Shown here one piece after another: positions 16,523 to 38,164 of a stretch of 64,000 nucleotides of DNA; the first letter of the stretch is position 1; every line of letters begins with the position of its first letter. The translations under genes and the position numbers were made by a program. This stretch comes from Prevotella sp. (GTDB lineage: Bacteria > Bacteroidota > Bacteroidia > Bacteroidales > Bacteroidaceae): contig JAGAXW010000010.1 in the NCBI GenBank assembly GCA_017847725.1, forward strand, positions 1-64,000, given 5' to 3'. The notes beneath the pieces were generated by a model that saw only the letters and a program-made list of their open reading frames with translations, was not told the DNA's origin and searched no databases.

Positions 16523-16535
16523 CAAACAACAAACT

Positions 16536-19331: not shown

Positions 19332-20168
19332 ATGATGAACGTAAGAGATTTGGAACTGCTTGCCGAGAAAAACCGCAAGCGGTTAGTAGAGGTGGTATAT
19401 GCCGCCAAAGCCGGCCACATCGGTGGCGACTTGTCGTGCCTGAACGTGATGACGGCACTCTATTTTGAGGTCATGAGAAACATCGACCCCGCCCAACCCA
19501 AGAATCCTGAGCGCGACCGCTTTGTGCTGTCGAAGGGCCACTGCGTGGAAGCGCTCTACGTCACGCTGGAGGCCAAGGGCTTCCTGGCTCCCGAAGTGCT
19601 CGACACGCTGGGCAAGTTCGGCTCGATACTGAGCGGACACCCCACCATCGAGGTGCCGGGCATCGAGGTCAACAGCGGTGCACTGGGCCACGGACTGCCC
19701 ATCGGTGTCGGCATGGCCATTGCCGCCAAGATGGACAAGAAGGCATGGCGCACCTACGTGATGATGGGCGACGGCGAACAGGGCGAGGGCTCTATCTATG
19801 AGGCTGCCATGGCTGGCGGCAAGTATAAACTGGACAACCTGGTGGCCATCATCGACCGCAACCACCTGCAGATCTCGGGCAATACGGAGGACGTGATGCC
19901 CATCGACTCTATCCGCGAGCGCTGGAGTGCCTTCGGCTGGGATGTCATCGAACTGAACGGTGACTCGATGGAGGACATTCTGCGGGCTTTCCACAGCATC
20001 GACTACTCCAACAGCAAACCACACCTGATGGTCAGCAACACCACCAAGGGCAAGGGCGTCTCCTTCATGGAGGGCATCGCCAAGTGGCACCACGGCGTAC
20101 TGAACGAGGAACAGTGCAAGGAGGCCGTGGCAGAGATAGAGAAAAGAATTGAAGGACTGAAAAATTGA
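19332..20168 (+). CDS. Transketolase N-terminal subunit (thiamine diphosphate-binding half)
   Basis: At 278 residues this is the first half of a split transketolase. It carries the ThDP/Mg motif GDGEQGEGSIYEAAMAGG...NLVAIIDRN (about 145-178), an early substrate-binding His in AGHIGGDLS, and SKGHCVEALY. The start is the ATG at 19332 (an alternative is 19335). The upstream frame is open further, but that part is AT-rich leader. The C-terminal subunit follows after 4 bases. A two-subunit transketolase next to an FGGY kinase and an isomerase suggests a specialised pathway rather than the central pentose-phosphate enzyme; D-apulose-4-phosphate transketolase (AptA-like) is my leading hypothesis. 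Confidence 0.9.
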   Translation: MMNVRDLELLAEKNRKRLVEVVYAAKAGHIGGDLSCLNVMTALYFEVMRNIDPAQPKNPERDRFVLSKGHCVEALYVTLEAKGFLAPEVLDTLGKFGSILSGHPTIEVPGIEVNSGALGHGLPIGVGMAIAAKMDKKAWRTYVMMGDGEQGEGSIYEAAMAGGKYKLDNLVAIIDRNHLQISGNTEDVMPIDSIRERWSAFGWDVIELNGDSMEDILRAFHSIDYSNSKPHLMVSNTTKGKGVSFMEGIAKWHHGVLNEEQCKEAVAEIEKRIEGLKN

Positions 20169-20172
20169 AGTT

Positions 20173-21096
20173 ATGATAGCTTGTAGAAAACAATTTACCG
20201 ACACGCTGCTGGAACTGGCACGTGAAGACAAGAATATCGTTGCCGTCACCACCGATGCACGCGGCTCAGTGACACTGGGCGACTATGCTGCCGCACTGCC
20301 CGAGCAGTTTGTAGAGTGCGGCATCGCCGAACAGGATGCCGTGGGCATCTCGGCCGGACTAGCCCATTCGGGCAAAAAGGTGTTCTGCTGCGGACCAGCC
20401 TGCTTCTATGTGGCCCGTTCGCTGGAACAGGTCAAGGTAGACTTGGCTTACTCGGAGAATCCCGTCACCATCCTGGGCGTGTCGGGCGGTGTGGCCTATG
20501 GTGCGCTGGGTGCCACTCACCACTCGCTGCACGACATCGCCGTGCTGCGCACCTTCCCCGGCATGACGGTATGCCTGCCCAGCGACTGGCGCGTCACCAA
20601 GAAACTCGTCAAATTCCTCGTCGACTACGACAAGCCGTGCTACGTCCGTGTGGGGCGTGCCGCCGTGCCCGACGTCTATGCCGACGACGACTTCCACTTT
20701 GAGGTGGGCAAGGCCATCCAGATTCTCGACGGCAAGGACGTGACCATCGTGGCCACGGGCGAAACCGTCTACCACGCTTGGCAGGCAGGCCTGCAACTGA
20801 AAGAAAAAGGTATCTCGGCCCGCGTGCTCGACATGTCGTGGATCAAGCCCTTCGACACCGAGGCCATCCTGAAGGCCGCCCGCGAGACGGGGCGCATCGT
20901 CACCGTCGAGGAACATTCGCAGTTTGGCGGTCTGGGAGCCATGGTCTGCGAGGCACTGTCGGAACAGCCCGTTCCCGTCCGCATCATCGGCATTCCCGAC
21001 GAGAACGTCGTCCACGGCACCAACGCCGAAATCTTCCACCACTACGGCATGGATGCCGAGGGCATTGTCAAATCCACACTCGACTTCATCCGATGA
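20173..21096 (+). CDS. Transketolase C-terminal subunit
   Basis: The 307-residue partner contains the pyrimidine-binding domain with the catalytic Glu53 in CGIAEQDAVGISAGLA, the conserved GATHHSLHDIAVLR loop, and the C-terminal transketolase domain (ARVLDMSWIKPFD). Together with the preceding subunit it should form an active alpha2beta2 enzyme transferring a two-carbon ketol unit in the cytosol. It is 4 bases from the first subunit, and its stop overlaps the kinase ATG (ATGA), indicating tight coupling. Donor specificity cannot be read from sequence. Apulose 4-phosphate is inferred from the neighbouring kinase and isomerase, with 1-deoxy-xylulose or ordinary pentose phosphates as alternatives. 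Confidence 0.9.
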   Translation: MIACRKQFTDTLLELAREDKNIVAVTTDARGSVTLGDYAAALPEQFVECGIAEQDAVGISAGLAHSGKKVFCCGPACFYVARSLEQVKVDLAYSENPVTILGVSGGVAYGALGATHHSLHDIAVLRTFPGMTVCLPSDWRVTKKLVKFLVDYDKPCYVRVGRAAVPDVYADDDFHFEVGKAIQILDGKDVTIVATGETVYHAWQAGLQLKEKGISARVLDMSWIKPFDTEAILKAARETGRIVTVEEHSQFGGLGAMVCEALSEQPVPVRIIGIPDENVVHGTNAEIFHHYGMDAEGIVKSTLDFIR

Positions 21097-22574
21097 ACAG
21101 AATCATTGCCATCGACCAAAGCACGTCGTCGACCAAGGCGCTGCTATTCGACGAGCAGTGCCGCCTGGTGGCGCGCACCAACGTAGACCACCAGCAGCAC
21201 TATCCACAGACAGGGTGGGTGGAGCACGATGCCGTAGAAATCTACGACAACATGATTGAGGCCATACGCCAACTGATGGCCAACAGCCAAGAGCCTGTAG
21301 CCGACACGCTGTACTCCCTCGCCATCACCAACCAGCGCGAGACGGCGGTGGTATGGAACAAGCGGACCGGCAAGCCCATTGCCAACGCCGTGGTGTGGCA
21401 GGACACCCGCGGTGCCGAACTGTGCCGCGAGCTGCGTGCCCTGGGCTATGGCAAACTGGTGATGGACAAGAGCGGACTGCTCATCGACCCTAACTTCTCG
21501 GCAACAGGCATCAAGTGGCTGCTCGACAACATCCCCGGAGCCCGTGAGACCGCCAACGACGGCGAACTGCTGCTGGGTACCATCGATACGTGGCTCGTCT
21601 GGAAACTGACAGGCGGCAAGGTACACGCCACCGACTATACCAACGCCTCGCGTACCATGCTGTTCAACATCCACACCATGCAGTGGGACGACGAACTGCT
21701 GCAACTGTTCGACATCCCGCGCTCGATGCTGCCCGAGGTGAAGCCCTGCGATGCCCTCTACGGCGAGACCACCGCGGAAGGCATCTTCCCCACCCCCATC
21801 ACCATTGCCGGTGTCCTGGGCGACTCGCATGGTGCCCTCGTCGGACAGATGTGTTTCCAGGAAGGCTCTGGCAAGGTGACCTATGGTACTGGCAGCAGTG
21901 TGATGGTGAACATCGGCGAGAAGCCGCTGCCTGCCCCCGAAGGACTGGTGACCAGCGTAGGCTATTCGGCCTTTGGCAAGACATACTACGGCTACGAGGG
22001 TAACATCTACAGCACGGGAGCCACCCTGAAATGGATGGCCGACCAACTGCAGCTGGTGGGTCACCCAGCAGAGATGGAGGCCCAGGCCGTCAGCGTCAGC
22101 GACAACGGCGGCGTATACATCGTACCGGCCTTCTCCGGACTCGGCGCACCCTGGTGGCAGTCGGATGTGAAGGGTGCCGTCTTCGGACTGACCTTTGCCA
22201 CCACCAAGGCACACTTCCTGCGGGCCGCACTGGAAAGCATTGCCTATCAGATTCGCGACCTGGTAGACGTGATGGCCCACGCCACCGGCGGACAACTGAA
22301 AGAGATATGCGCCGACGGCGGTCCCACCAAGAACAAGTTCCTGATGCAGTTCCAAGCCGACATGCTCGACACCCCCGTGGTATGCACAGAAGTCGACGAT
22401 GCCTCGGCCCTGGGTGCCGTCATCATGAACGGCTTCGCCCGTGGCCTATGGAAGAGCTTCGACGAGGTCAAGGACTTCCGCAAGGTGACACAGGTGTTCA
22501 AGCCGCAGCCGACGGCAGCCACGGCACAGCTCTACCAGGGCTGGCGCGAGGCGGTCGGTCAACTCATTAAATAA
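21093..22574 (+). CDS. FGGY-family carbohydrate kinase (glycerol-kinase-like)
   Basis: The 493-residue kinase starts MNRIIAIDQSTSSTKALLFD, the ASKHA phosphate-1 motif, and has TGWVEHDA, TNQRET, VTYGTGSSVMVN (phosphate-2), the FGGY signature GLGAPWWQSDVKGAVFGLT near 350 and an adenosine motif near ADGGPTKN. It phosphorylates a sugar or polyol with ATP in the cytosol. It resembles glycerol kinase overall but has STSSTK where GlpK has GTTSSR. Its place between a split transketolase and a sugar isomerase, without any glycerol genes, points to a ketose such as D-apulose. Start is the ATG overlapping the previous stop. Confidence 0.88.
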   Translation: MNRIIAIDQSTSSTKALLFDEQCRLVARTNVDHQQHYPQTGWVEHDAVEIYDNMIEAIRQLMANSQEPVADTLYSLAITNQRETAVVWNKRTGKPIANAVVWQDTRGAELCRELRALGYGKLVMDKSGLLIDPNFSATGIKWLLDNIPGARETANDGELLLGTIDTWLVWKLTGGKVHATDYTNASRTMLFNIHTMQWDDELLQLFDIPRSMLPEVKPCDALYGETTAEGIFPTPITIAGVLGDSHGALVGQMCFQEGSGKVTYGTGSSVMVNIGEKPLPAPEGLVTSVGYSAFGKTYYGYEGNIYSTGATLKWMADQLQLVGHPAEMEAQAVSVSDNGGVYIVPAFSGLGAPWWQSDVKGAVFGLTFATTKAHFLRAALESIAYQIRDLVDVMAHATGGQLKEICADGGPTKNKFLMQFQADMLDTPVVCTEVDDASALGAVIMNGFARGLWKSFDEVKDFRKVTQVFKPQPTAATAQLYQGWREAVGQLIK

Positions 22575-22601
22575 AAGACAGAAACTCTAAACTGAACAAA
22601 T

Positions 22602-24026
22602 ATGAAAAACGGAAAGACCTGTTTTGGCGTAATCATCGGAACACGCGCCTATTTTAACTCCGAACTGGCCAAGGACGTGCGCAAGCAACTCCTGAAAACC
22701 CTCGAAGAGGGCGGCTACGAGTATGTCATCCTGCCTGAAGACGCAACGCCCACCGGCAGCAGCAGTATCGAGACCCGCGAAGACGGACTGAAGGTCAGCA
22801 AGCAGTTTCGCGCCCACCGCGACGAGATAGACGGCATCATCGTCTCGCTGCCCAACTTTGGCTTCGAGATTGGTATCATCAATGCCATCAGCGATGCCGA
22901 CCTAAACGTTCCCGTCCTGGTGCAGGCCTGCGACGACGAGAACGACAAGGTAGACCTCGACTCACGCCGCGACGCCTTCTGCGGCAAGATCAGCGTCTGC
23001 AACAACCTCTACCAGTATGGCATCCCCTTTACGGACACCACCCTGCACACCTACTCCATCTACAGCCCTCTGCTCCGCCAGGACATCGACCGCTTTGCCG
23101 CCATCTGCCGTGTCGTCAATGGTCTGCGCCACTGCCGACTGGGACAGATTGGTACGCGTCCGCTGGGCTTCAACACCTGCCGCGCCAGCGAAAAGCTGCT
23201 GCAGCGCAGCGGCATCACCGTCGTTCCTGCCGACCTGAGCGAAATTCTCTTTGCCGCACAGAAAATCAGCGACGACGACCCGAAGTTCATCGAGATGTGC
23301 AACCGCACCTGCAACTATGCCAAGGTGCCCGACAACTACAAGGACAAGCTGGCCATCCAGGCTAAGTTCAGCGTAGCCGTCGAGAACTGGATTGAGGCCA
23401 ACGACGTGCAGGCCGTGGCCATCCAGTGCTGGGACTCGCTGGAGCAGAACTACGGCTGCGCTCCCTGCGTGACCATGTCCATGCTCAGCGACAAGCTCAT
23501 CCCTGCCGCCTGCGAGACCGACCTCGCCGGTGCCGTATCAATGTACGCCCTGACGCTGGCCTCGGGCAAGGCTTCTGCCCTGCTCGACTGGAACAACAAC
23601 TTCGCCGAAGACCGCAACAAGTGCGTCTGCACCCACTGCGGCAACTACGCCAAGTCGTTCGTTGGCAACGACGACCTGAAGCTCGGTCCCCTCGGCGTGC
23701 TGGGCCGCACCCTGGGCAAGGTGAAGACCTTCGGTGCCGTCTATGCCAAGGTTTCTGAAGGCCCGTTCACCTTCTTCCGCATCTCCACCGACGACCCGAA
23801 GGGCTGCATCAAGGCCTACCTCGGCAAGGGTCAGCTCACCAACGACCCCTACGGCATGGACGGCTGCATCGCCGTCACTCAGGTGGACAACCTGCAGAAG
23901 CTGATGAAGTATATCTGCAAGAACGGCTTCGAGCACCATGTCGCCATGTGCCGCACCGATGTCGTAGACATTCTCAACGAGGCCATCGAGACTTACCTCG
24001 GCTGGCAGCTCTACGTACATGAGTAA
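22602..24026 (+). CDS. L-fucose/L-arabinose-isomerase-fold sugar isomerase
   Basis: The 474-residue protein matches the fucose-isomerase C-terminal family. Probable Mn ligands are the Glu of AACETDLAGA, the Asp of ALLDWNNN and the His of CTHCGNY, in the usual order. The segment QCWDSLEQNYGCAPC is also family-typical. N-terminal Rossmann-like domains (GVIIGTRAYF) precede these. It should interconvert an aldose and a ketose in the cytosol. It is neither a canonical L-fucose nor L-arabinose isomerase by its surroundings: no fuculokinase/aldolase or araB/araD follow. The kinase and split transketolase just upstream make a branched or uncommon pentose such as D-apiose a reasonable substrate. The operon ends with a terminator hairpin. 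Confidence 0.82.
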   Translation: MKNGKTCFGVIIGTRAYFNSELAKDVRKQLLKTLEEGGYEYVILPEDATPTGSSSIETREDGLKVSKQFRAHRDEIDGIIVSLPNFGFEIGIINAISDADLNVPVLVQACDDENDKVDLDSRRDAFCGKISVCNNLYQYGIPFTDTTLHTYSIYSPLLRQDIDRFAAICRVVNGLRHCRLGQIGTRPLGFNTCRASEKLLQRSGITVVPADLSEILFAAQKISDDDPKFIEMCNRTCNYAKVPDNYKDKLAIQAKFSVAVENWIEANDVQAVAIQCWDSLEQNYGCAPCVTMSMLSDKLIPAACETDLAGAVSMYALTLASGKASALLDWNNNFAEDRNKCVCTHCGNYAKSFVGNDDLKLGPLGVLGRTLGKVKTFGAVYAKVSEGPFTFFRISTDDPKGCIKAYLGKGQLTNDPYGMDGCIAVTQVDNLQKLMKYICKNGFEHHVAMCRTDVVDILNEAIETYLGWQLYVHE

Positions 24027-24050
24027 CAATCGGTGACAAAACACCCCTCC

Positions 24051-24089
24051 GTCCGTCTCATATATAAAATATATAAATATGAGACGGAC
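24051..24089 (+). terminator. Terminator-like hairpin containing the start codon of the next gene
   Basis: Perfect 13-bp arms GTCCGTCTCATAT (24051-24063) and ATATGAGACGGAC (24077-24089) are followed by TTCTTTTT. The right arm includes ATG 24079-24081 and the first codons of the GH2 gene. It can end the catabolic operon and, in read-through mRNA, hide the GH2 start. Confidence 0.75.
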
Positions 24090-26943
24090 TTCTTTTTCCC
24101 TGTTATTCATCTTTTCTTTTCTTTTCAGCGGCGTAGTAGCACAGGAGACCCAGCGCCAATATCTGAGTGGTCACGGTTGTGACGACATGGTGCAGTGGGA
24201 CTTCCGGTGTACGGACGGCAGGAACAGCGGCAAGTGGACCAAGATTGGTGTCCCCTCGTGCTGGGAACTGCAGGGCTTCGGCACCTACCAGTACGGCATG
24301 CGCTTCTACGGCAAGGCGACACCCGAGGGCATCGCCGACGAGAAAGGCCATTACAAACACGAGTTTACGCTTCCCAAAGAGTGGCAAGGCCGGCAGATCC
24401 TGCTCGTCTTCGAGGCTGCCTTTACAGAAATACGTGTCCAGATTAATGGTCGCAAGGCCGGCAACGGTACCTATCAGGGCGGTTTCACACGTCACACCAT
24501 TGACGTCAGCGACCGTGTCTTCTTCGGGCAGAAGAAAAACCGCTTAGAGGTGGAGTGTCTGAAGGAGAGCAGTGTGCCACAGGTCAATCTGGCTGAGCGC
24601 CGTGCCGACTACTGGAACTTCGGTGGCATCTGGCGTCCGGTCTACATCATCGCCAAGCCGGCACAGAACATCAGTCGTGTGGCCATCGACGCCAAGGCCG
24701 ACGGCCACTTTATGGCCAACGTATTCCTCAACCGCGCCCTGCCAGGCACCAGTGTGACCGTAGACTTTGTCGACAACAACGGAAAGAAGGTTGCCACCAG
24801 TCCGGCCGTCACCGTGGCCAGCGACCAGGCAAAGGTGGACTACAGCGTCAAGGGCATCAAGACTTGGAATGCCGAACAGCCCAACCTCTATACAGCCATC
24901 TTTACGCTCAAGGATGCCCAGGGCAAAGCCCTCCATGTGGAGCGTCAGCGCTTCGGTTTCCGCACCATCGAGTATCGCCACAGCTATGCGCAGCCGCTCT
25001 CCCATCCAGGGAAGGGGTCGCCCCACGTCTACGGCTGCCAGGAGGACGGTCTCTTCATCAATGGTCAGAAGGTCATCGTGAAGGGTGCCAACCGCCACTC
25101 GTTCCGTCCTGAGACAGGGCGCACGCTCAGCAAGGCAAAGAATATCGAGGACGTGCTGCTCATCAAGTCGATGAACATGAATGCCGTGCGCCTGTCGCAC
25201 TACCCTGCCGACCCCGAGTTCCTGGACGCCTGCGACTCGCTGGGCCTCTATGTAGAGTGTGAGCAGCCCGGCTGGCACTGGGCTCACGAGACCATCATCG
25301 GCAGTCAGATTGTGGAGGAGATGGTGACGCGCGACGTCAACCACCCGAGCATCATCTTCTGGAGCAACGGCAACGAGGGCGGCTTCAACTACGAGCTGGA
25401 ACCCGTCTTCACGAAGTTCGACCCGCAGCAGCGCGTGGTGCTCTATCCCTGGGCCAACCGCAACGGCTTCGAGACCAAGCACTACCGTTCGTGGGGCGAG
25501 ACGGCAGAGTATATGCGGCAGAAGGAAATCTTCATGCCCACGGAGTTCCTGCACGGCCTCTACGACGGTGGCCACGGCGCCGGACTGAAGGACTACTGGA
25601 AGATGATGATGTCGAATCCCCGCTGTGCCGGCGGTTTTCTGTGGGACCTCATGGACCAGGGCGTGGTGCGCACGGATATGAATAACATCGTAGACTGTAT
25701 GGGCAATTTCGGAGCCGACGGCATCGTAGGGCCGCACATGGAGAAGGAGGGTTCGTTCTATACCATCCGCGAGGTGTGGAGCCCGGTGCAGGTGAAGGAC
25801 TGGGGCAACAAGATAACCCTTAAGAACTGCTACGACTTCACCAACCTGAAGGACTGCCAGTTCAGCTACCGTCTGTTAGACATGCCGGCATACGGTGAGT
25901 CGCAGGTGAAGGTGCTGAAGGAGGGCAAGCTACCGTCACCCGACGTGGCTCCCGGCAAAACCGCCAGGTTGGAGATAGACAAGACCAACGCCGACGTGAT
26001 AGAACTGACAGCCATCGACCCGCATGGACAGGAAATTTTCAAGTGGACCCATAAGCACTTCTACAAAAACGTAGGCAACTTCGGCAAGAACACCCGTCGC
26101 CAGAACACCCAGGCCTATACCACGAAGGAAGATGCCAACCAGTTGGTGGCAACGCAGGGCAACCGCCAGTACACCTTTGACAAGAAGACGGGCCGTTTGA
26201 CGGGCGTCAGCGTTGGTGGCAGGACCATCAGCTTCAGCAATGGCCCGCGCTTCGTCGCTGCCAAGCGTGCCGACCGCTCGCAGGACGGCTTCTACAACCA
26301 CGACGACAAAGAGGCCTTCCAGAAGAAGACCGACTATACAGAGTATGCCGACCAGGGTGCCTTTGTCGGCTTTACCGTCTCCGACTCGACACTGGTGGCC
26401 AACTACCTCCACGGCTCGCTCGAGAAAGTGACCTACCGCTTCCTCAAGGACGGCGGGCTGTATATGAACGCCGACTACTACTTCAACGGCGTGGTAGACC
26501 TGATGGGCATCTGCTTCGACTATCCTGAGCAGCAGGTGAAGAGCAAGACATGGGTGGGCAAGGGCCCGTACCGCGTCTGGCAGAACCGCATGGAAGGTCC
26601 GCAGTATGGCCTGTGGCACAACCAGTACAACGACCCCATTCCCGGCGAGTCGTTCGAGTATCCGGAGTTCAAGGGCTACTTTGCCGATGTCAAGTGGATG
26701 CAGCTTGAGACCACCGAGGGGCGCATAGGCATTGAGACCCAGAACGGCGAGATAGGTGTCTATACCCCACGCGACGGCCGCGACCATCTGCTCTACACCC
26801 TGCCCGAGACGGGCCTCAGCATCCTGAAGGCCATCCCCGCCGTGCGCAACAAGGTGAACACCACTGACCTCAACGGTCCCTCTGCCCGGCCCTACTGGAG
26901 CAAGGGCAAGGGACGTATCAACGCTATACTCCACTTCGAATGA
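24079..26943 (+). CDS. Secreted glycoside hydrolase family 2, beta-galactosidase-like
   Basis: The 954-residue protein has a signal peptide (MRRTSFSLLFIFSFLFSGVVAQ) and the full LacZ-like layout: sugar-binding jelly roll (24-210), Ig-like domain, TIM barrel (about 320-600), and a C-terminal beta domain of the Bgal_small type. The acid/base is Glu433 in WSNGNEGG; the nucleophile is Glu489 in MPTEFLHGLYDG. Note the barrel entry motif NRHSFRPETGRT where LacZ has NRHxHxPxxGR. It likely acts in the periplasm on a beta-linked galactoside, glucuronide or arabinoside; substrate cannot be fixed. Its start codon sits inside a terminator-like hairpin. The GH106 gene overlaps its stop by 4 bases. Confidence 0.9.
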   Translation: MRRTSFSLLFIFSFLFSGVVAQETQRQYLSGHGCDDMVQWDFRCTDGRNSGKWTKIGVPSCWELQGFGTYQYGMRFYGKATPEGIADEKGHYKHEFTLPKEWQGRQILLVFEAAFTEIRVQINGRKAGNGTYQGGFTRHTIDVSDRVFFGQKKNRLEVECLKESSVPQVNLAERRADYWNFGGIWRPVYIIAKPAQNISRVAIDAKADGHFMANVFLNRALPGTSVTVDFVDNNGKKVATSPAVTVASDQAKVDYSVKGIKTWNAEQPNLYTAIFTLKDAQGKALHVERQRFGFRTIEYRHSYAQPLSHPGKGSPHVYGCQEDGLFINGQKVIVKGANRHSFRPETGRTLSKAKNIEDVLLIKSMNMNAVRLSHYPADPEFLDACDSLGLYVECEQPGWHWAHETIIGSQIVEEMVTRDVNHPSIIFWSNGNEGGFNYELEPVFTKFDPQQRVVLYPWANRNGFETKHYRSWGETAEYMRQKEIFMPTEFLHGLYDGGHGAGLKDYWKMMMSNPRCAGGFLWDLMDQGVVRTDMNNIVDCMGNFGADGIVGPHMEKEGSFYTIREVWSPVQVKDWGNKITLKNCYDFTNLKDCQFSYRLLDMPAYGESQVKVLKEGKLPSPDVAPGKTARLEIDKTNADVIELTAIDPHGQEIFKWTHKHFYKNVGNFGKNTRRQNTQAYTTKEDANQLVATQGNRQYTFDKKTGRLTGVSVGGRTISFSNGPRFVAAKRADRSQDGFYNHDDKEAFQKKTDYTEYADQGAFVGFTVSDSTLVANYLHGSLEKVTYRFLKDGGLYMNADYYFNGVVDLMGICFDYPEQQVKSKTWVGKGPYRVWQNRMEGPQYGLWHNQYNDPIPGESFEYPEFKGYFADVKWMQLETTEGRIGIETQNGEIGVYTPRDGRDHLLYTLPETGLSILKAIPAVRNKVNTTDLNGPSARPYWSKGKGRINAILHFE

Positions 26944-29900
26944 AAAGAACAGCACTCTCCATCGCAGTCATGTGCCTTACGCTATTGGCACAAGGAACAA
27001 ACACCTCGAAGCCCTGGACCTTCTGGTACTGGATGTATGGAGCCGTCAGCGAGGAGGGCATCCGTGCCGACCTGCAGGCCATGAAGGATGTCGGACTGGG
27101 CGGCTGCTACCTGATGCCCATCCGCGGGGCTGCCGAGCGCCCCGAATATGGTGGGCAGGCTGATGCCCTGAGTGAAAACTTCTGGCGAATGGTAGACTGT
27201 GCGCTGGTACAGGCCGACTCGCTCGGCCTGGAGATGGGCATTCACGTCTGCGACGGCTTTGCACTGGCTGGCGGGCCCTGGATCAAGCCCGAAGAGTCCA
27301 TGCAGAAGATTGTCTTCTGCGACACGGTTGTCAACGGAGGGCGCCATCACTTCATGATGCAGAAGCCTCAGCACTATCAGGACTATTACCAAGACATTGC
27401 TGCCTACGCAATACCCGTCGGCAACTCCCCTGCCATACGTCAGGAGAAGATGACCTACTCTCCCAACGTCACCATCAATGCCAAAGGTGTCTACTGTGCC
27501 GATACTCCCTGCTGGCTACAATATGAGTTCAACGAACCCACGCTGGTACGGAATGTGGAGATAGAGCCCTCGGGTACCAACATCCAATGTCAGCGACTGC
27601 TCGTGAAGGCCTCTGACGACGGTGTCGTATTCTATCGGGTCAAGCAGTTGGTGCCGCCTCGCCAGGGATGGCAGAACACGGGGTTCAACACCACCTTCTC
27701 CATTCCGCCCACACGCGCCAGGTATTTCCGTTTCGAGTGGACCCCAGAGGGGACTGAGCCAGGTTCCGAAGACTTGGATGCTGCCAAGTGGAAAGCCGTG
27801 CTCCGACTGAAGAGCCTCAAGCTGGGCAGTTATCCGCTTATCGACAACTGGGAGGGCAAGGCAGGATACGTATGGCGCAAAGCCCCTGACACGCCGGAAG
27901 AAGACCTGGGAACAGACGATTTCCTGCGCCCGCAAGACATCATTGTCGCCCAGATGAAGGGCGACATGTTCACATGCCACTTGCCGGAAGGCCGGTGGCG
28001 TATTCTGCGCATGGGGCACACCTCTACCGGTCATACCAATGCCACGGCAGGCGGTGCCAAGGGACTGGAGTGCGACAAGTTCTCACACGAGGCTGTCGCA
28101 AAGCAGATTGACTCGTGGTTTGGCCTCTTCATGCAGCGCCCCAACCATCGCGCTGTCAAATACATGCACGTAGACTCCTGGGAGTGTGGCTCGCAGAACT
28201 GGAGCCCTACCTTTGCACAAGAGTTCGAACGCCGCCGGGGCTACGACATTTTGCCCCTCCTGCCCCTGTACGCCGGTGTACCGATGAAAGGCGGCGAAGA
28301 GGTGCTGCGCGACGTCCGAAAGACCATCAACGAACTGGTCAACGAAGTATTCTTCACCACGGCCGCCCGGAAAGCCCGGGAGTATGGCGTGCTGCTCTCT
28401 TCAGAGAGTGTAGCGCCCACCATGATGTCCGACGGCATCGAACATTATAAATATGTCGATATGCCCATGGGCGAATACTGGCTCAACTCGCCCACCCACG
28501 ACAAGCCTAACGACATGCTTGACGCCATCAGCGGCGCCCACGTCTACGGCAAGAACATCGTGCAGGCCGAAGGCTTCACGGAGGTGCGCGGCGTATGGGA
28601 CGAGACGCCGGCGATGGTCAAGCCCCTGCTGGACCGCAACTTTGCCTTGGGCATGAACCGCCTCTTCTTCCATGTCAACACCCACAACCCCTGGATGGAC
28701 CGCAAGCCCGGCATGACGCTCGACGGCATCGGCCTCTTCTTCCAGCGCGACCAGACGTGGTTCCCAGAAGCCAAGGCCTTCGTCGACTACATCACCCGCT
28801 GCCAGCAATACATGCAACGAGGAACACCCGTTGTCGACATTGCCGTCTATACGGGCGAGGAGATGCCTCGTCGCGCCCTAACGCCCGACCGCCTGGTTCC
28901 GATGCTGCCGGGACTCTTTGGCGCTGAGCGCATAGCTTCAGAACAAAAGCGCCTAGCCAACGTCGGCCAGCCGATGGAGGAATCACCTGTCGGCGTACGC
29001 CACTCCGCCAATATCCTCGACCTGAAAGACTGGATCAATCCCCTGCACGGCTACCACTATGACTCGATGAATCCGGACGGCCTTGCCTGCTGGGTTGCCA
29101 AATACGCAGCAGATCCGCAGCACGTCGTCATGCCTCCCTATCGCGTCCTCGTCATCCCGCAGGATGCAAAGGTGAGCCGTGAGACATGGCAGCGCATCGA
29201 CACCCTGAAGCGCAACGGCATCACCGTGATTACCGAGCCCTACCGCGCTGACACGCTGCCCGGCCTTCCTCCCGATGCCGTACTGCCTGAAGGCATCGCC
29301 TTCGCACACCGCAAGGACCACAGCACGCACTATTTCTTCCTGAGCAACCAGACCGACCGCGAGCAGACCTTCCAGGCCAAACTGCGCACGCGCGATGTGA
29401 CTTCGCTCATCAATCCCGTAACGGGAGAACTGCTGGATTTCCATCAGCACCGTGAAGGCGTGTACAGCTGTGTCGACATCACACTGCCGGCATACGGTTC
29501 GGTCATCGCAGGCTGTGGCCTGATGTTCCTCGACGCCTCTACGGTCAGCCAACAGCCCGACGCGGCCATGCCCATCGGCGAAAACCTGCGGTGGGAGATA
29601 TCCTTTGTGGAGAACCAGGAGCAGGTGAGCACCCGCCAACTGTTCGACTGGAGCCAGAGCAAGAACGACCGCATCCGTTACTACAGCGGACGTGCCCGCT
29701 ATTCCACCACCTTCCACGTGAAGAAGAAAGACATGGAACGACTGACGTGGCTGCAGCTGCCTGGCGTGAAGGACGTGGCCCACGTATGGCTCAACGGTCA
29801 CGACCTCGGAACAGTATGGACAGCCCCCTACATGGTGCCGCTCCAGAAACACCTGCGCAAGGGCAAGAACACGCTGGAGATAGACGTGGTGAACACCTGG

Positions 29901-30149
29901 CACAACGCACTGCGAGGTGCCGACTGCGGGAAAGCACCCTACGACGGCATCTGGACCAACGCCCGCTACCGCACGAAGGCACGGAGCAGCGAGAGCCATC
30001 CGAGCTCGCTTGGGAATGGCCGAGTCGCGACAGAAGCCGACGAAGTCAAGGGCGACGGCCTCCTGCCCGCCGGACTGCTGCAGACGCCCCTGCTGGTGAG
30101 AGACCGCCAGACCTTCTGGAAAGCATTAGAGAAAGTATTAAACAAGTAA
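26940..30149 (+). CDS. Glycoside hydrolase family 106, alpha-L-rhamnosidase-like
   Basis: The 1069-residue secreted protein (signal RTALSIAVMCLTLLAQG) begins its catalytic part with WTFWYWMYGAVSEEGIRADL and GLGGCYLMPIRG, the GH106 entry signature. YMHVDSWECGSQNW (Glu415) and EFERRRGYD are further family hallmarks, as is the QAEGFTEVRGVWDETP segment. A C-terminal galactose-binding-like domain (AHVWLNGHDLGTVW, NTLEIDVVNTWHN) follows near 940-1010. Characterised GH106 enzymes remove alpha-L-rhamnose from pectic rhamnogalacturonans. Glu versus Asp placement should be checked before calling it a rhamnosidase with certainty. ATGA overlap with the upstream GH2 and a 10-base gap to the esterase show one operon. 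Confidence 0.85.
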   Translation: MKRTALSIAVMCLTLLAQGTNTSKPWTFWYWMYGAVSEEGIRADLQAMKDVGLGGCYLMPIRGAAERPEYGGQADALSENFWRMVDCALVQADSLGLEMGIHVCDGFALAGGPWIKPEESMQKIVFCDTVVNGGRHHFMMQKPQHYQDYYQDIAAYAIPVGNSPAIRQEKMTYSPNVTINAKGVYCADTPCWLQYEFNEPTLVRNVEIEPSGTNIQCQRLLVKASDDGVVFYRVKQLVPPRQGWQNTGFNTTFSIPPTRARYFRFEWTPEGTEPGSEDLDAAKWKAVLRLKSLKLGSYPLIDNWEGKAGYVWRKAPDTPEEDLGTDDFLRPQDIIVAQMKGDMFTCHLPEGRWRILRMGHTSTGHTNATAGGAKGLECDKFSHEAVAKQIDSWFGLFMQRPNHRAVKYMHVDSWECGSQNWSPTFAQEFERRRGYDILPLLPLYAGVPMKGGEEVLRDVRKTINELVNEVFFTTAARKAREYGVLLSSESVAPTMMSDGIEHYKYVDMPMGEYWLNSPTHDKPNDMLDAISGAHVYGKNIVQAEGFTEVRGVWDETPAMVKPLLDRNFALGMNRLFFHVNTHNPWMDRKPGMTLDGIGLFFQRDQTWFPEAKAFVDYITRCQQYMQRGTPVVDIAVYTGEEMPRRALTPDRLVPMLPGLFGAERIASEQKRLANVGQPMEESPVGVRHSANILDLKDWINPLHGYHYDSMNPDGLACWVAKYAADPQHVVMPPYRVLVIPQDAKVSRETWQRIDTLKRNGITVITEPYRADTLPGLPPDAVLPEGIAFAHRKDHSTHYFFLSNQTDREQTFQAKLRTRDVTSLINPVTGELLDFHQHREGVYSCVDITLPAYGSVIAGCGLMFLDASTVSQQPDAAMPIGENLRWEISFVENQEQVSTRQLFDWSQSKNDRIRYYSGRARYSTTFHVKKKDMERLTWLQLPGVKDVAHVWLNGHDLGTVWTAPYMVPLQKHLRKGKNTLEIDVVNTWHNALRGADCGKAPYDGIWTNARYRTKARSSESHPSSLGNGRVATEADEVKGDGLLPAGLLQTPLLVRDRQTFWKALEKVLNK

Positions 30150-30159
30150 CAGCATATCT

Positions 30160-31617
30160 ATGAAAAGACTATTCACATGGCTGATGGCCATCGGTGCCGT
30201 CGCACTCATGCAGGCTAAGGTCCGCCTGCCTCAATTCTTCGCCGACAACATGGTGCTGCAGCAGCAGTCGAAATGTAACCTGTGGGGCTGGGCCAAGCCG
30301 GGACAGCAGGTAAGCGTCAGCACCTCGTGGGACAAGAAGACCTATATGGTGACAGCCCGTAAGGACGGACTCTTCAGTCTGACGGTGCAGACACCGGCAG
30401 CAGGAGGCCCCTACTTCATCGGCTTCAAAGACCAGGACTACGTGCAGCTGCAGAACGTGATGATTGGCGAGGTATGGATATGCTCCGGCCAGTCGAACAT
30501 GGAGATGCAGATGAAGGGCTTCAAGCAGCAGCCCGTCGAGGGAACGACAGAGGAACTGCTGCGCTGCAAGGACACACAGCTCAGACTGTTCACCGTGAAG
30601 CGCCACGCCTCGCTGACGCCCGTCGACGATGTGACGGGCCACTGGGACGAGGCCAACGCTGCCAGCGTGCGCGACTTCTCGGCCACAGCTTATTATTTCG
30701 GCAAGGCGCTGCGCTCCACGCTGGGTGTCCCCGTCGGCCTCATCGTCACCTCGTGGGGTGGTTCGGCCTGTGAGGCCTGGATGCAGGCCGACTGGCTCAA
30801 GGCCTTCCCCAAGGTCAACCAGCACGTCACGCAGCAGGATGTCGACAAGCTGAAGCAGCGCTGTCCTACCGCCCTCTACAACGGCCAGCTGAAGCCGCTG
30901 ATAGGCTACACGATGAAGGGCGCCATCTGGTATCAGGGCGAAGACAACATCCCCCGCTACGACTACTATGCCCCACTGCTGGCCCGCATGGTACAGGGAT
31001 GGCGCGAGGACTGGAAGCAGGGCGACTTCCCGTTCTACTACTGTCAGATAGCACCCTACGACTACTCCATCATCGGCTGGAAGGACTCGCAGATGCTGCG
31101 CGAACAGCAGCTCAAGGCAGAGACGCTGATTCCCAACGCCCGCATGGCCGTGCTGATGGACGCCGGCCTAGAGTATGGCATCCATCCGCGCAAGAAGCGG
31201 CAGGCCGGCGAGCGCCTGGCCCTCCTGGCACTGACCAACAGCTACGACGTCAAGGGACTGCCCGACTTTGCCGTATATAAAGAGATGACCATCCAAAACG
31301 ACACCTGCGTCATCGCCTTCGACCGCTCCAAGGAGTGGGTCTACTTCGAGCACGGCACTACGTCAAAGAACTTCGAGGTGGCCGGCAGCGACCGCGTGTT
31401 CCACCCCGCCACCAAGGTGTGGGTGAGCCGCAACCGCGTCTACGTGAAGTGCGACGCGGTGAAACGGCCCGCTGCCGTGCGCTATGCCTGGCACGACTGG
31501 GTGGAGGGCGACCTCATGCACGACGGTCTGCCCGTCTCGTCGTTCCGCACCGACAACTGGGACACGCCAGTTGCCAAGCCCAACGCCACTAAAGGAGATT
31601 ACAACAACCCCAGATAA
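30160..31617 (+). CDS. SGNH-type sialate O-acetylesterase-like carbohydrate esterase
   Basis: The 485-residue secreted enzyme (signal near 1-20, ending MQAKV) has the GDS-like block GEVWICSGQSNMEMQM with nucleophile Ser112, the WYQGEDN block, and the catalytic dyad Asp334/His342 in MDAGLEYGIHPRKK followed by GERLA. These are the landmarks of the sialate O-acetylesterase family, which in plant-degrading Bacteroidota commonly removes acetyl groups from pectic or hemicellulosic sugars rather than sialic acid. Being embedded between GH106 and GH2 genes in an operon supports a plant-glycan deacetylase acting before the glycosidases. Confidence 0.87.
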   Translation: MKRLFTWLMAIGAVALMQAKVRLPQFFADNMVLQQQSKCNLWGWAKPGQQVSVSTSWDKKTYMVTARKDGLFSLTVQTPAAGGPYFIGFKDQDYVQLQNVMIGEVWICSGQSNMEMQMKGFKQQPVEGTTEELLRCKDTQLRLFTVKRHASLTPVDDVTGHWDEANAASVRDFSATAYYFGKALRSTLGVPVGLIVTSWGGSACEAWMQADWLKAFPKVNQHVTQQDVDKLKQRCPTALYNGQLKPLIGYTMKGAIWYQGEDNIPRYDYYAPLLARMVQGWREDWKQGDFPFYYCQIAPYDYSIIGWKDSQMLREQQLKAETLIPNARMAVLMDAGLEYGIHPRKKRQAGERLALLALTNSYDVKGLPDFAVYKEMTIQNDTCVIAFDRSKEWVYFEHGTTSKNFEVAGSDRVFHPATKVWVSRNRVYVKCDAVKRPAAVRYAWHDWVEGDLMHDGLPVSSFRTDNWDTPVAKPNATKGDYNNPR

Positions 31618-31626
31618 CAAAGCCGT

Positions 31627-34194
31627 ATGACAAGAAAAACGATATTCACCCTACTCATCCTCACCATCACGCTCCCCGTGCTGTCACAACCTACCATGCA
31701 GGGAGAATCCGTGGCCGGCCTCTTCCCCCTGGAAGGCAGCGGCCGACAAGTATGGAACTTCAATGCCGGCTGGCGCTTCCACTTAGGCGACCTGGCGGGT
31801 GCTGAACAAAAGGCCTTCGACGACCAGTCGTGGGAGGTCGTCAGCACGCCACACACCGTCCAGCTCATGCCTGCCGAAGCCAGCGGCTGCCGAAACTATC
31901 AGGGAATAGCGTGGTATCGCAAGCACTTCCGCATACCGCAGGAGTGCCAGGGCAGAGACGTCACCCTCCACTTCGAGGCCATCATGGGCAAGCAGACGTT
32001 CTACGTCGACGGGCGCCAGGTGCAATACCATGAGGGCGGCTACCTGCCCGTCACCCTCCGTCTCACAGACCTCGGCTACAAAGCCGGCGACGAACTGGTC
32101 ATCGCCGTGAAGGCCGACAACAGCGACGACAAGACCTTTCCTCCCGGCAAGACACAGATGACGCTCGACTTTGCCTACCACGGCGGCATCTATCGCGACG
32201 TGTGGCTCATCGCCAAGCAGCAGGTGGCCATCACCGACGCCCTTGAGGCCGGCAAGGTGGCTGGCGGCGGCATCTTCGTACACTATGCCAACATCTCCGA
32301 AAAGAACGCCGACGTCTATGTCGACACCGAGATTAAGAACAGCGGCCGGCATGCGCGTACCGTCACGGTGGAGACCACGCTGCAGAAGACCATACGCACC
32401 AGGGTCACCCTGAAGCCCGGTCAGACGCACACGGTCTGCCAGCACTTCCGGGTCAGGAACCCCGTGCTATGGTCGCCCGAGAATCCCCATCTGTATCCAG
32501 TAGCCACACGCGTCATGGACGGACGGCAGTCGCTCGACGGCGGCATCACCCGCATCGGCATCCGCTCGTTCGAGTTCAAGGGCAGCGAGGGCTTCTGGCT
32601 CAACGGCCGTCACTATCCCCAGCTGGTGGGTGCCAACCGCCATCAGGACTTCGCCTATGTAGGCAACGCCCTGCCCAACTCGCAGCAGTGGCGCGACGCC
32701 AAACGGCTACGCGACGCCGGGTTCACCATCATCCGCACGGCCCACTATCCGCAAGACCCGTCGTTCATGGATGCCTGCGACGAGCTGGGGCTCTTCGTCA
32801 TCGTCGCCACCCCGGGCTGGCAGTTCTGGAACAAGATGGAGGGATGGGCCGACAAGGTGCAGCAGAACACGCGCCTCATCATCCGCCGCGACCGCAACCA
32901 CCCCTCGGTACTGATGTGGGAGCCCATCCTCAACGAGACGCGCTTCCCCGAGCAGTTTGCCCTCGACGCCCTGCAGATTACCAAAGACGAATATCCCTAC
33001 CCCTATCGCCCCGTGGCCGCTGCCGACGTCCACTCTGCCGGCGTGAAGGACCACTACGACGTGGTCTACGGATGGCCGGGCGACGACTTCAAGGCCGACA
33101 AGCCCCGACAGTGCATCTTCACCCGTGAGTTCGGCGAACTGGTAGACGACTGGTATGCCCACAACAACCTGAACCGTGCCTCCCGCTCGTGGGGCGAGCG
33201 GCCCATGCTGACACAGGCGCTCAGCCTCTTCCGCAGCACAGACGAGCTCTACCACACTACTGGACAGTTCATTGGCGGCTGCCAGTGGCATCCCTTCGAC
33301 CACCAGCGCGGCTACCACCCCGACCCCTACTGGGGCGGCATCTACGACGCCTTCCGCCAGCCTAAGACCGCCCTGCCCATGTTCCAGGCCACCCTGCCCG
33401 GCCATGCGCCCATGGTGTACATCGCCCACGAGATGACGCAGTTCTCTGAGAAGGACGTGACCGTCTTCTCCAACTGCGACAGCGTGCGGCTGACCCTGTA
33501 TGGCGGAGCGCACTGCTGGACGCTGCCTGTCGTCCGCGAGGCCGGCCACGCCCCCTCGCAGCCCGTCGTCTTCAAGGACGCCTGGGACTTCTTTGAGGCC
33601 CGCAGCTGGAGCTACACCAAGCGCAACTGGCAGAACGTGAAGATGGTGGCCGAAGGTATCGTGGGCGGCAAGGTGGTATGCCGTGAGGAGCGGATGCCCT
33701 CGCGCCGCAGCACCAAGTTGCGGCTGCGCGTCGACGACATGGGGCGTCAACTGGTGGCCGACGGTTCAGACTTCATCGTCGTCGTCTGTGAGGTCACCGA
33801 CGACCTGGGGCACGTGCGCCGGCTGGCCAAGGAATATATCACCTTCAGCATAGAGGGCGAGGGCGAAATCATTGGCGATGCCACCATCCATGCCAATCCG
33901 CGTGCCGTCGAATGGGGCAGCGCCCCCCTGCTGGTACGCTCCACGCGCAAGGCTGGCCGCATCAAGATACATGCCGAGGTGCAGTACCCCGGCACGCATG
34001 CGCCCACTCCGGCCGACCTGGAGATAGAGAGTATTCCCTATGCGGTGCCCATGTGCTACGACGACGCCATCACAACGGGCGGCAGCACCACCGTAAAGCG
34101 CCAAAAGAGCACCCCCACCCTGTCAGAGGCCGAGAAGGCCAAGATGCTGCAAGAGGTGGAGGCCCAACAGGCCGACTTCGGCATACAGAAATAA
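31627..34194 (+). CDS. Second secreted glycoside hydrolase family 2 enzyme
   Basis: This 855-residue protein has a signal (KTIFTLLILTITLPVLSQ), a GH2 sugar-binding domain (HFEAIMGKQTFYVDG), an Ig-like domain, and a barrel with acid/base Glu437 in WEPILNETRF and nucleophile Glu501 in FTREFGELVDDW. The C-terminal part adds further beta domains (VFSNCDSVRLTLYG; VCEVTDDLGHVRRLA). The acid/base context departs from the LacZ GNE pattern (LNE), so it belongs to another GH2 subfamily than the gene at 24079. It is the last gene of the plus-strand cluster and faces sufB, 18 bases away, without an obvious terminator. Confidence 0.87.
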   Translation: MTRKTIFTLLILTITLPVLSQPTMQGESVAGLFPLEGSGRQVWNFNAGWRFHLGDLAGAEQKAFDDQSWEVVSTPHTVQLMPAEASGCRNYQGIAWYRKHFRIPQECQGRDVTLHFEAIMGKQTFYVDGRQVQYHEGGYLPVTLRLTDLGYKAGDELVIAVKADNSDDKTFPPGKTQMTLDFAYHGGIYRDVWLIAKQQVAITDALEAGKVAGGGIFVHYANISEKNADVYVDTEIKNSGRHARTVTVETTLQKTIRTRVTLKPGQTHTVCQHFRVRNPVLWSPENPHLYPVATRVMDGRQSLDGGITRIGIRSFEFKGSEGFWLNGRHYPQLVGANRHQDFAYVGNALPNSQQWRDAKRLRDAGFTIIRTAHYPQDPSFMDACDELGLFVIVATPGWQFWNKMEGWADKVQQNTRLIIRRDRNHPSVLMWEPILNETRFPEQFALDALQITKDEYPYPYRPVAAADVHSAGVKDHYDVVYGWPGDDFKADKPRQCIFTREFGELVDDWYAHNNLNRASRSWGERPMLTQALSLFRSTDELYHTTGQFIGGCQWHPFDHQRGYHPDPYWGGIYDAFRQPKTALPMFQATLPGHAPMVYIAHEMTQFSEKDVTVFSNCDSVRLTLYGGAHCWTLPVVREAGHAPSQPVVFKDAWDFFEARSWSYTKRNWQNVKMVAEGIVGGKVVCREERMPSRRSTKLRLRVDDMGRQLVADGSDFIVVVCEVTDDLGHVRRLAKEYITFSIEGEGEIIGDATIHANPRAVEWGSAPLLVRSTRKAGRIKIHAEVQYPGTHAPTPADLEIESIPYAVPMCYDDAITTGGSTTVKRQKSTPTLSEAEKAKMLQEVEAQQADFGIQK

Positions 34195-35833: not shown

Positions 35834-38164
35834 ATGATGATAAAAAGAACATGTATGCTCATCGAAAGCCTCATCATCTGCCTGACTATGATGGCAGGAA
35901 GCATTACGACGGAACAAGCTGAAGAGATAGCCCGCAGGTTCGTCAGCAGCAAGGGCACTGCCATGCAGGGTCAGCGCATGCGGATGGCGGCCAGACGGCA
36001 GCTGCCGCTGCATGTGGCACACAACGCCAGTGCCTTCTACGTATTCAACGTGGGCACGGACGACGGCTATGTGATGGTGAGCGGCAGCGATCTGACACCA
36101 CAGGTACTGGGCTATGCCGACCGGGGCAGCTTCGACGAGCAGGCACTGCCTGCCAACATGAAAGCCTGGATAGACGGATATGCCGACCAGATAGCCTATA
36201 TCGAGCAGACGCAGGGCAGCCATGAGGCTCCTGTGCCGCGCCGAAGCCGGACGCCCGTCGCACCGCTGCTGACCAGCACGTGGGACCAGGACGAGCCTTA
36301 TAATAATAGGTGTCCGGAGTATAAGGGCAAGCACTCCATGACGGGATGTGCCGCTACGGCCCTGGCACAAGTGCTGAACTATCACAAATATCCGGCACAG
36401 ACCGTCAGCGCCATTCCGGCCTATACGACTACGACACATAGCATAGCAATGCCGGAGATTCCTGTCACCACCATCGACTGGGACAACATGCTCGACAGCT
36501 ACAGCGGCAGCGAGACAGATGCCCAGAAGAATGCCGTAGCCCAGCTGATGCTCTTGTGCGGACAGTCTCTACAGATGGACTATACACCAGACGAAAGCGG
36601 CACTAAAACAGTATACTATGCCCAGGCATTGACCCATTACTTTGGCTATGAAGACGTGTCGCTCCAGTTACGTGAAGCCTTCAGCACCAGCGAATGGGAG
36701 ACCATGATATACAACGAGATAGCCAACAACCGTCCAGTGCTCTACAACGGACAGACGTCGCGTGGCGGACACGCCTTCGTCGTCGACGGCTGCGATGCCG
36801 ACGGACTGTTCCACGTCAACTGGGGATGGAGCGGCCAGAGCAACGGCTATTTTCTGCTGTCGGTGCTGAATCCCTACAACAACGAGGCCATCGGTTCGAG
36901 CAGCAGCAGAGACGGCTACAGCTTCAGTCAGAATGCCTTGACAGGCATCCGTCACAGTACGGGCGGGAAACTTGAAGAACGCCTCCTCTTGGACGACATC
37001 ACCAACGACGGTGACAAAAGCTACACCCGCACGTCGGCAGCCGCCGACTTCAGCGGTATGAAAGTGACGGTGACGGCATACAACAGCAACAGCGGACAGC
37101 TTGACTGCCAGATAGGGCTGGCCCTGTGTGACGCCAGCGGAAGCATGGTCAAACTGCTGGGCTCGCAGAGCCGTTCGCTGGCATACATCCACGAAGCCAC
37201 GTGCACGTTCAGCAGCATATCCTTCGGCAGTGGACTGTCTGACGGCATCTACTACATAGTGCCCGTCTGCAAGACAGCGACAGTGGACGACTGGAAACCC
37301 TGCTGGGGAAGTTCCGTCAACCGTATCACGGCAACCGTCAGCGGCCTGACGCTGACGCTGACGGAGCCGACGGCCAGTCTGAGCGGAACCATCGCCGCAA
37401 CAGGCAACAAACAGAAGAATACGACGGTGAACCTGCAAGCCCAGATTACCAACAGCGGAACGTATTTCAACGGCTACGTCTACCTCCTGGTGAACAACTC
37501 TCTCGCGGGCGGTCGCATCTTCGAGGCAGAAGTCGGAGCGACGGTCACGTTCGACATCGACTACACCCCCACCACGACAGGCATCAAGCAGCTGACGCTG
37601 GCCTACCGCACAAACACCGACTACGTCCCCATTGCCACCAGCACCATGACAGTCACGTCGGGAGCCGACGACCAGCTGCTGGGCAGCATCACGGTGACCA
37701 ACGCCAACAGCGCGGGAAACATCGAGGGGTCGACGGTCAACTTCACGGCTACCTTCACCAATATCAGCGACAGAGACTTCAGCGGCTATCTGTATGCCAA
37801 GCTATATCAGTATGACAACTCGCTCAACCAGTGGGTCAACAAGGCGACCAAGAATGCCAACACCACCATCGCTGTCGGCAGCAGCGGCACGCTGACCGAA
37901 ACCTTCGGCAGCCTGGAGGCAGGCGGAATGTATTACCTGCTGCAGAGCTATTCAGCGGACGGCATCAAGATTACAGACATCGAGGAGGGCATGGCGATAT
38001 TCAATGTTGTCGCTCCTACAGCCGTCAGAACCATCCGTACCGGCAGCCAGCCCTTTGATGTCTATACGACGACGGGCTATAAGGTGCGCCGTCAGGTAAC
38101 CTCGCTGAGAGACCTGCCTGCCGGCATCTATATCGTGAACGGGAGGAAAGTAGCCGTGAAATAA
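35834..38164 (+). CDS. Secreted C10 (streptopain-like) cysteine protease with sorting tail
   Basis: The 776-residue protein has a signal peptide, a Spi-like propeptide (AFYVFNVGTDDGYVMVSGSD), and a C10 domain with nucleophile Cys172 in MTGCAATALAQVLNYH and catalytic His313 in RGGHAFVVDGCD followed by FHVNWGWSG. Three Ig-like domains follow to about residue 700, and the C-terminus (FDVYTTTGYKVRR, then GIYIVNGRKVAVK) is a type IX-like sorting tail. The enzyme family includes streptopain and Prevotella interpain A, which are made as zymogens. Expected location is the surface or medium. A strong hairpin follows the stop. Confidence 0.9.
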   Translation: MMIKRTCMLIESLIICLTMMAGSITTEQAEEIARRFVSSKGTAMQGQRMRMAARRQLPLHVAHNASAFYVFNVGTDDGYVMVSGSDLTPQVLGYADRGSFDEQALPANMKAWIDGYADQIAYIEQTQGSHEAPVPRRSRTPVAPLLTSTWDQDEPYNNRCPEYKGKHSMTGCAATALAQVLNYHKYPAQTVSAIPAYTTTTHSIAMPEIPVTTIDWDNMLDSYSGSETDAQKNAVAQLMLLCGQSLQMDYTPDESGTKTVYYAQALTHYFGYEDVSLQLREAFSTSEWETMIYNEIANNRPVLYNGQTSRGGHAFVVDGCDADGLFHVNWGWSGQSNGYFLLSVLNPYNNEAIGSSSSRDGYSFSQNALTGIRHSTGGKLEERLLLDDITNDGDKSYTRTSAAADFSGMKVTVTAYNSNSGQLDCQIGLALCDASGSMVKLLGSQSRSLAYIHEATCTFSSISFGSGLSDGIYYIVPVCKTATVDDWKPCWGSSVNRITATVSGLTLTLTEPTASLSGTIAATGNKQKNTTVNLQAQITNSGTYFNGYVYLLVNNSLAGGRIFEAEVGATVTFDIDYTPTTTGIKQLTLAYRTNTDYVPIATSTMTVTSGADDQLLGSITVTNANSAGNIEGSTVNFTATFTNISDRDFSGYLYAKLYQYDNSLNQWVNKATKNANTTIAVGSSGTLTETFGSLEAGGMYYLLQSYSADGIKITDIEEGMAIFNVVAPTAVRTIRTGSQPFDVYTTTGYKVRRQVTSLRDLPAGIYIVNGRKVAVK

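Follow-up and report, generated by a model that had tools for sequence, protein, structure and literature searches.

Eight consecutive genes in a stretch of 64,000 nucleotides from Prevotella sp. (contig JAGAXW010000010.1 of assembly GCA_017847725.1; the whole stretch is called the window here) very probably serve the use of D-apiose, a rare branched sugar found in pectin; to this reading we assign a probability of about 85% on the strength of sequence comparisons. The first four genes would encode the non-oxidative route of D-apiose degradation and the next four exported enzymes acting on rhamnogalacturonan II (RG-II), the part of pectin in which this sugar occurs, the apiose itself being freed by an apiosidase from another locus of the same genome. 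In the proposed route, an isomerase would convert D-apiose to D-apulose, an FGGY kinase derived from the glycerol kinase GlpK would phosphorylate D-apulose to D-apulose 4-phosphate, and a two-subunit, thiamine diphosphate-dependent transketolase would pass two carbons on to glyceraldehyde 3-phosphate, with xylulose 5-phosphate and dihydroxyacetone phosphate as products. The four exported enzymes, which form a recurrent block, would trim RG-II, most likely its side chain B. We infer the substrates, the cellular location, the uptake and the co-transcription of the two halves; the operon in the window includes no transporter gene. The chemistry of the D-apiose transketolase pathway (AptA/AptB/AplK/ApsI) was reportedly described by Carter et al. 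in 2018. Both the pathway and the RG-II block are thus of known kinds, and what this analysis adds is a residue signature of the kinase, a count of the exchange between the isomerase and short-chain dehydrogenases/reductases (SDRs), and the division of apiosidase-bearing genomes by the presence of the operon.

An earlier note made from this DNA alone had listed the eight genes in the same order, and coordinates, Pfam and NCBIfam agree with that inventory (Table 1). Its proposal of apiose as substrate and its link to RG-II gain support from the clade of the kinase, the pocket residues of this enzyme, the isomerase/SDR exchange in enterobacterial apt clusters, the apiosidase elsewhere in the genome and a glycoside hydrolase of family 106 (GH106) of the BT_0986 type. 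All eight genes lie on the forward strand between 19332 and 34194. Where they are separated, the spacing is 4-52 bp, and there are two overlaps, one of 7 bp between the second transketolase subunit (TkB) and the kinase and one of 4 bp between the first GH2 gene (GH2a) and the GH106 gene. The gene order is beyond chance, since the order tkA-tkB-kinase-isomerase recurs in 17 of 17 neighbourhoods fetched and GH2-GH106-esterase is repeated in other genomes. For the first transketolase subunit (TkA), the mechanical open reading frame (ORF) begins at a GTG at 19194, and the ATG at 19332 agrees with the start of most homologues (275-305 aa). Signal-like hydrophobic N-termini, judged by eye, are present on all four glycosidase and esterase proteins. 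The assembly comprises 2.39 Mb in 56 contigs and is 80.6% complete.

Table 1. Genes of the putative apiose operon and the adjoining RG-II block, with positions in the window
Feature	Position	Strand	Evidence
Transketolase N-terminal subunit, AptA-type (TkA)	19332..20168	+	PF00456, 155 bits; 40% identity to E. coli SE15 AptA
Transketolase C-terminal subunit, AptB-type (TkB)	20173..21096	+	PF02779 and PF02780; 33% identity to E. coli SE15 AptB; tree
FGGY kinase, AplK (apulose kinase) clade	21090..22574	+	PF00370/PF02782; 39% identity to E. coli SE15 AplK; clade support 100/99; S247/S271/N306 pocket
PF02952 sugar isomerase, candidate D-apiose isomerase (ApsI slot)	22602..24026	+	Pfam; enterobacterial homologues; E305/D329 spacing
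GH2 (GH2a), beta-galactosidase-like, opening the RG-II block	24079..26943	+	PF02836 and others
GH106 alpha-L-rhamnosidase, BT_0986 type	26940..30149	+	PDB 5mqm, 1173 bits; six active-site and calcium residues kept
SASA/SGNH-type carbohydrate esterase	30160..31617	+	PF03629; matches to sialate/carbohydrate O-acetylesterase structures
Second GH2 (GH2b)	31627..34194	+	PF02836, PF18565

Kinase, isomerase and transketolase

In a tree of 70 rows calculated with IQ-TREE, for which 16 enterobacterial loci were picked by hand, the kinase of the window groups with 17 other operon kinases, 18 enterobacterial AplK-type kinases, one from Monoglobus and nine from genus g24, and 21 GlpK-like rows fall outside this clade. 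Residues of the substrate pocket change along with the clade. At positions Q247, F271 and A306 (E. coli GlpK numbering), the first two of which we take to be glycerol-pocket residues, the kinase of the window has S, S and N, and the same triplet is found in 74 of 74 kinases, namely that of the window, 17/17 from operons, 53/53 from enterobacterial loci and those of Klebsiella, Rahnella and Monoglobus (Ent_L088 and Oth_L094 were set aside for their length). It also occurs in five kinases of genus relatives and in two, from Roseateles and Rhizobium records, that are encoded beside split transketolases and SDR genes. Q, F and S occupy these positions in all 13 other GlpK-like sequences and in all seven GlpK-like genes of the window's own family, a comparison made without the BacPar rows, and overall the 21 non-AplK-type kinases have Q, F and S or A. 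As apulose can be viewed as glycerol with a ketol branch, a GlpK-derived kinase with an altered pocket would be chemically sensible. The signature separating apulose from glycerol kinases would make apiose use predictable from genes now labelled "glycerol kinase", as the Monoglobus member of the AplK clade is.

E. coli SE15, the source of the reference AplK, carries an apiose cluster at ECSF_RS02670-RS02715 with aplK as ECSF_RS02700, aptA as RS02710 and aptB as RS02715. The paper that names it also reports growth of four cluster-bearing Escherichia strains with D-apiose as the only source of carbon (PMC13001218).

Two observations on kinase diversity may be added. A near relative (G593; L271:10676-12211) has an isomerase 99% identical to that of the window and a kinase only 81-84% identical. 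In genus g24, sister kinases in 9/9 genomes fetched (L200-L208, for example L200:4696-6183) have Asn at the position of D246, presumably the proposed catalytic base of GlpK, and S, S and H in the pocket. They adjoin an ORF whose translation resembles a lytic transglycosylase (read without Pfam), no match to transketolase or isomerase was found within the fetched stretches, and perhaps this kinase has been recruited to another role.

The isomerase matches the C-terminal domain of FucI (PF02952, 110.6 bits) and has 474 aa as compared with about 590 aa for FucI, so that it does not have the full-length FucI architecture. Over its whole length it resembles FucI very weakly: a profile comparison, from which the truncated isomerase of L073 and rows outside the length range were removed, aligned only 83 columns at a probability of 17%. 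A phmmer search against the PDB gave no match at E 0.001. The spacing of E305 and D329 is that of E337 and D361 in FucI, which we take to be its metal site.

Outside the family, relatives with 44-47% identity are encoded in enterobacterial apt clusters, two of them on plasmid records. Among 56 such clusters, 26 have only an SDR pair, 26 only the isomerase and one has both, three being unclear (one is cut by a contig end); in 24 of the 27 isomerase-bearing clusters the gene sits between aptB and aplK. In PMC13001218, the only paper naming an apiose isomerase that our literature search found, Escherichia is reported to be without apsI and to have two oxidoreductase genes in its place. Since the exchange of isomerase and SDR pair mirrors this exchange of apsI and oxidoreductases, the isomerase of the window is most likely an enzyme of the apsI type and not a replacement for it. 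The earlier note's idea of a new, non-orthologous apiose isomerase is therefore not supported: 27 of the 56 enterobacterial apt clusters examined already contain a member of this family, and most of the rest have the SDR pair.

Two records met in this survey deserve mention. L108 (Klebsiella CP110761.1, 11,645 bp, linear, filed as "plasmid") contains ten genes, nine of them like those of the apiose cluster, and may be a chromosomal fragment. In L054, filed as Sporobacter termitidis, the apt cluster is of the enterobacterial type and its kinase shares 83% identity with E. coli AplK, so that contamination is likely.

A split transketolase by itself was not accepted as evidence because it is also present in other clusters. 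In the TkB tree, 14 enterobacterial loci were picked by hand and L039 was omitted; the length of L231 marks it as a complete transketolase.

Occurrence of the operon and of apiosidases

The isomerase was detected in 19 of 399 genomes of the family, that of the window included. Beyond the 17 neighbourhoods with conserved order, an eighteenth (G171) is ended by a contig edge; the isomerase ORF of L029 and the kinase ORF of L023 were located by tblastn. A permease-like gene adjoins the isomerase in six neighbourhoods. Flanking genes include a GH28 pectinase in L031, SusC/SusD and esterases in L025 with homologues in L024, and, in L027 and L028, a DeoR-like regulator, a 3,4-dihydroxy-2-butanone 4-phosphate (DHBP) synthase and a DUF5060/PF13204 apiosidase-type protein. 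PF13204 apiosidase-type genes are found at the module or a few genes from it in L027/L028 (63 bits), Monoglobus (60 bits) and Listeria (247 bits).

In L027 and L028, which are single-contig genomes, the DHBP synthase gene is of the stand-alone kind and has the operon and DeoR-like regulator on one side and the gene of apiosidase type on the other (L027:14890-15504, L028:15012-15626; checked with Pfam in L028). The Listeria locus, in a plasmid collection (L216:4548-13176) and unannotated, has genes for a LacI-like regulator, isomerase, split transketolase, kinase, a protein like those of the phosphotransferase system and a PF13204 protein in a row.

A strong PF13204 match is present in 67 of the 399 genomes, that is in 15/19 with the isomerase as compared with 52/380 without it. 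The associated p value (Fisher 1.3e-9, on the assumption that both surveys covered the same 399 genomes) is descriptive only because the groups share ancestry. In the window's own genome, a separate RG-II-type locus (C33) encodes an apiosidase (PF13204, 371 bits), a BT_1020-like protein, a GH95, two GH78 and a FucI-length PF02952 protein.

The borate bridge of RG-II links two apiose residues (PMC12168206). In one study apiose was still detectable after wild-type Bacteroides thetaiotaomicron had been cultured on an RG-II oligosaccharide (PMC7939467). Gut consumers of apiose are little documented in the literature searched. Of the 67 sampled genomes with an apiosidase, 52 have no apiose isomerase operon. 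Should the RG-II degraders of the family really be divided in this way, the apiosidase-only majority would make the apiose that it releases a public good. Such a division is open to growth and cross-feeding tests.

The RG-II block and its junction with the operon

The next best match of the GH106 enzyme to a GH106 structure after 5mqm scores 327 bits, and 5mqm is BT_0986, for which the published work gives E461 as acid, E593 as base, D458, S459, E538 and E561 as calcium ligands, and a heptasaccharide of RG-II chain B as suggested substrate (PMC6828813). All six of these residues are aligned and identical in the enzyme of the window. GH2a scores 801 bits with the NCBIfam model of the BT4156 type, below its cut-off of 1700. 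A GH106 match at E 1e-150 is found in 26 of 301 family genomes, and of the 25 other genomes 15 neighbourhoods were fetched. An esterase homologue adjoins the GH106 gene in all 15, a close homologue of GH2a (54-78%) is present in 13 and one of GH2b (62-69%) in six, GH2b being 74% identical in three genus relatives. All four genes occur in the order of the window in L141, L143, G464, G471 and G614.

The direct join of operon and block was looked for with a 1-kb probe spanning the junction. Of 249 genus genomes, 93 gave a match to at least one half; in the capped list of matches, ordered from the best, only the window's own genome matched across the junction. In 11 other genomes with operon and block the two are never directly joined, lying on separate contigs or 26 kb to megabases apart. 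In G464, G471 and G614 the halves are 11-17 kb apart on the same strand, and in G464 RimP-, NusA- and IF-2-like genes, then Suf genes, stand between the isomerase and the block. In the window, the block follows the isomerase directly, a convergent SufB gene comes next after GH2b, and SufB, IF-2 and NusA are inverted behind the block (names in relatives were read from translations and order, those of NusA, IF-2 and SufB in the window from Pfam). The arrangement of these genes in G464 and in the window indicates that the direct join is probably a local rearrangement of two already neighbouring sets.

Spacing makes co-transcription of the two halves plausible. It is possible, at somewhat below even odds, that RG-II trimming and apiose use are united in one co-induced transcription unit and that the family is divided into apiose eaters and apiosidase-only genomes. 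To be weighed against this is a tentative alternative, likewise given a little less than an even chance, in which the apiose pathway is real but the block is a rearranged neighbour that is not co-regulated. It would account for a join spanned, among the junction matches listed, by the window's genome only, and for the NusA-, IF-2- and Suf-like genes that intervene in G464 but in the window have the opposite orientation and lie on the far side of the block; it also agrees with our search upstream of TkA, in which no Bacteroides-type promoter motif was found. However, all eight genes run in one direction and are never more than 52 bp apart, the two halves are directed at a single polysaccharide, and three relatives (G464, G471, G614) keep them 11-17 kb from each other on one strand.

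Further out in the window, two long proteins upstream (10160-19103) are repeat- or adhesin-like, the first by Pfam and the second from its translation, and downstream a C10 cysteine protease with a Spi inhibitor domain (35834-38164) is encoded between sufB and IF-2.

Competing explanations and known systems

Several observations speak against the assignment to apiose or weaken parts of it. Long branches (Monoglobus) make details of the kinase tree less reliable. The kinase beside the Listeria module has S, S and I, with I in place of N at position 306, and the kinase of the window has Asn at GlpK position Y136, as in five genus relatives, this residue being Tyr in 17 other operon kinases, four of them from the window's genus. 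TkB is closer to split transketolases of Listeria (51%) and of the Rhizobium group (41-46%) than to E. coli AptB, split transketolases also occur without an AplK-type kinase within 5 kb, and TkB of L039 reads as two ORFs. The enterobacterial isomerase is called ApsI by exclusion. Four of the 19 isomerase genomes (G001, G031, G106 and the fragmentary G171) have no strong apiosidase match. The operon is also not always intact: the isomerase genes of G471 and G464 come after a gene of GH95 type (Pfam on G464 only) and are apart from kinase and transketolases, the kinase of G471 being about 130 kb away; in G464 (84% complete, 7% contamination) a kinase was looked for and none was found; and the kinase and isomerase genes of G485 are separated by an ABC transporter plus two other genes. 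This ribose-type transporter (L274:4364-8397), whose binding protein has 31-37% identity to its counterparts in the apt clusters of E. coli and Klebsiella, is a candidate apiose importer in this family.

If the substrate is not apiose, the four-gene set might serve another ketose-forming sugar by the same chemistry, for example an uncommon pectin pentose. This seems unlikely to us, although the connection with the apiose cluster is one of homology, at 33-40% identity to E. coli AptA, AptB and AplK, and three genomes of genus g2 have the operon without a strong apiosidase match, two of them with SusC, SusD and an esterase gene downstream. Against it stand the pocket change and clade shared with AplK, whose cluster occurs in organisms growing on D-apiose, and the apiosidase-type genes near the module in three unrelated lineages. 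That the kinase is an ordinary glycerol kinase in a mixed neighbourhood is highly improbable. It exceeds the cut-off of the GlpK subfamily model NF000756 (626 bits as compared with 498), comes just below that of TIGR01311 (583.5 and 590.35), and is 45% identical to E. coli GlpK. However, the best matches of E. coli AplK are likewise NF000756 and TIGR01311 (490 and 495 bits, below both cut-offs), and as AplK itself tops out on GlpK models such scores do not discriminate. Tree and pocket place the kinase apart from GlpK, the seven GlpK-like genes of the same family included, and its order with isomerase and transketolase is fixed. The distinction from glycerol kinase implied by the earlier note thus holds for phylogeny and pocket and fails for the NF000756 cut-off. 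A role of the isomerase in sulfoquinovose catabolism, together with a sulfo-transketolase, was considered and dropped as hardly credible: SftI (NF048012) is its sole NCBIfam match and a sulfofructose transketolase pathway is in print, but the match has 116 bits where the cut-off is 700, such a route is not known to need a kinase like that of the operon, and the Pfam results of 28 window proteins contain no sulfoquinovosidase family.

The assignment to D-apiose can finally be placed beside the systems already described. With GlpK, the kinase of the window shares fold family, length and the retained R84, E85, W104 and D246, and it differs by Q247S, F271S, A/S306N, Asn at Y136 and a clade of its own. 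Compared with Bacteroides RG-II loci (BT_0986 and the apiosidase BT_1012), the six GH106 residues are the same and the genome encodes an apiosidase and a BT_1020-like protein elsewhere. In contrast to those loci, GH2, GH106, esterase and GH2 lie directly behind apiose genes in the window, and no SusC/SusD pair occurs among the 28 proteins scanned with Pfam, smaller ORFs being outside that scan. The operon differs from Apt clusters in having no ABC transporter, regulator or SDRs, in its order tkA-tkB-kinase-isomerase, and in its identities of 33-40%. It has in common with the Apt cluster of E. coli SE15 the split transketolase and a GlpK-derived kinase with the same pocket residues, and with enterobacterial Apt clusters an isomerase whose homologue occupies the isomerase slot in half of those examined.

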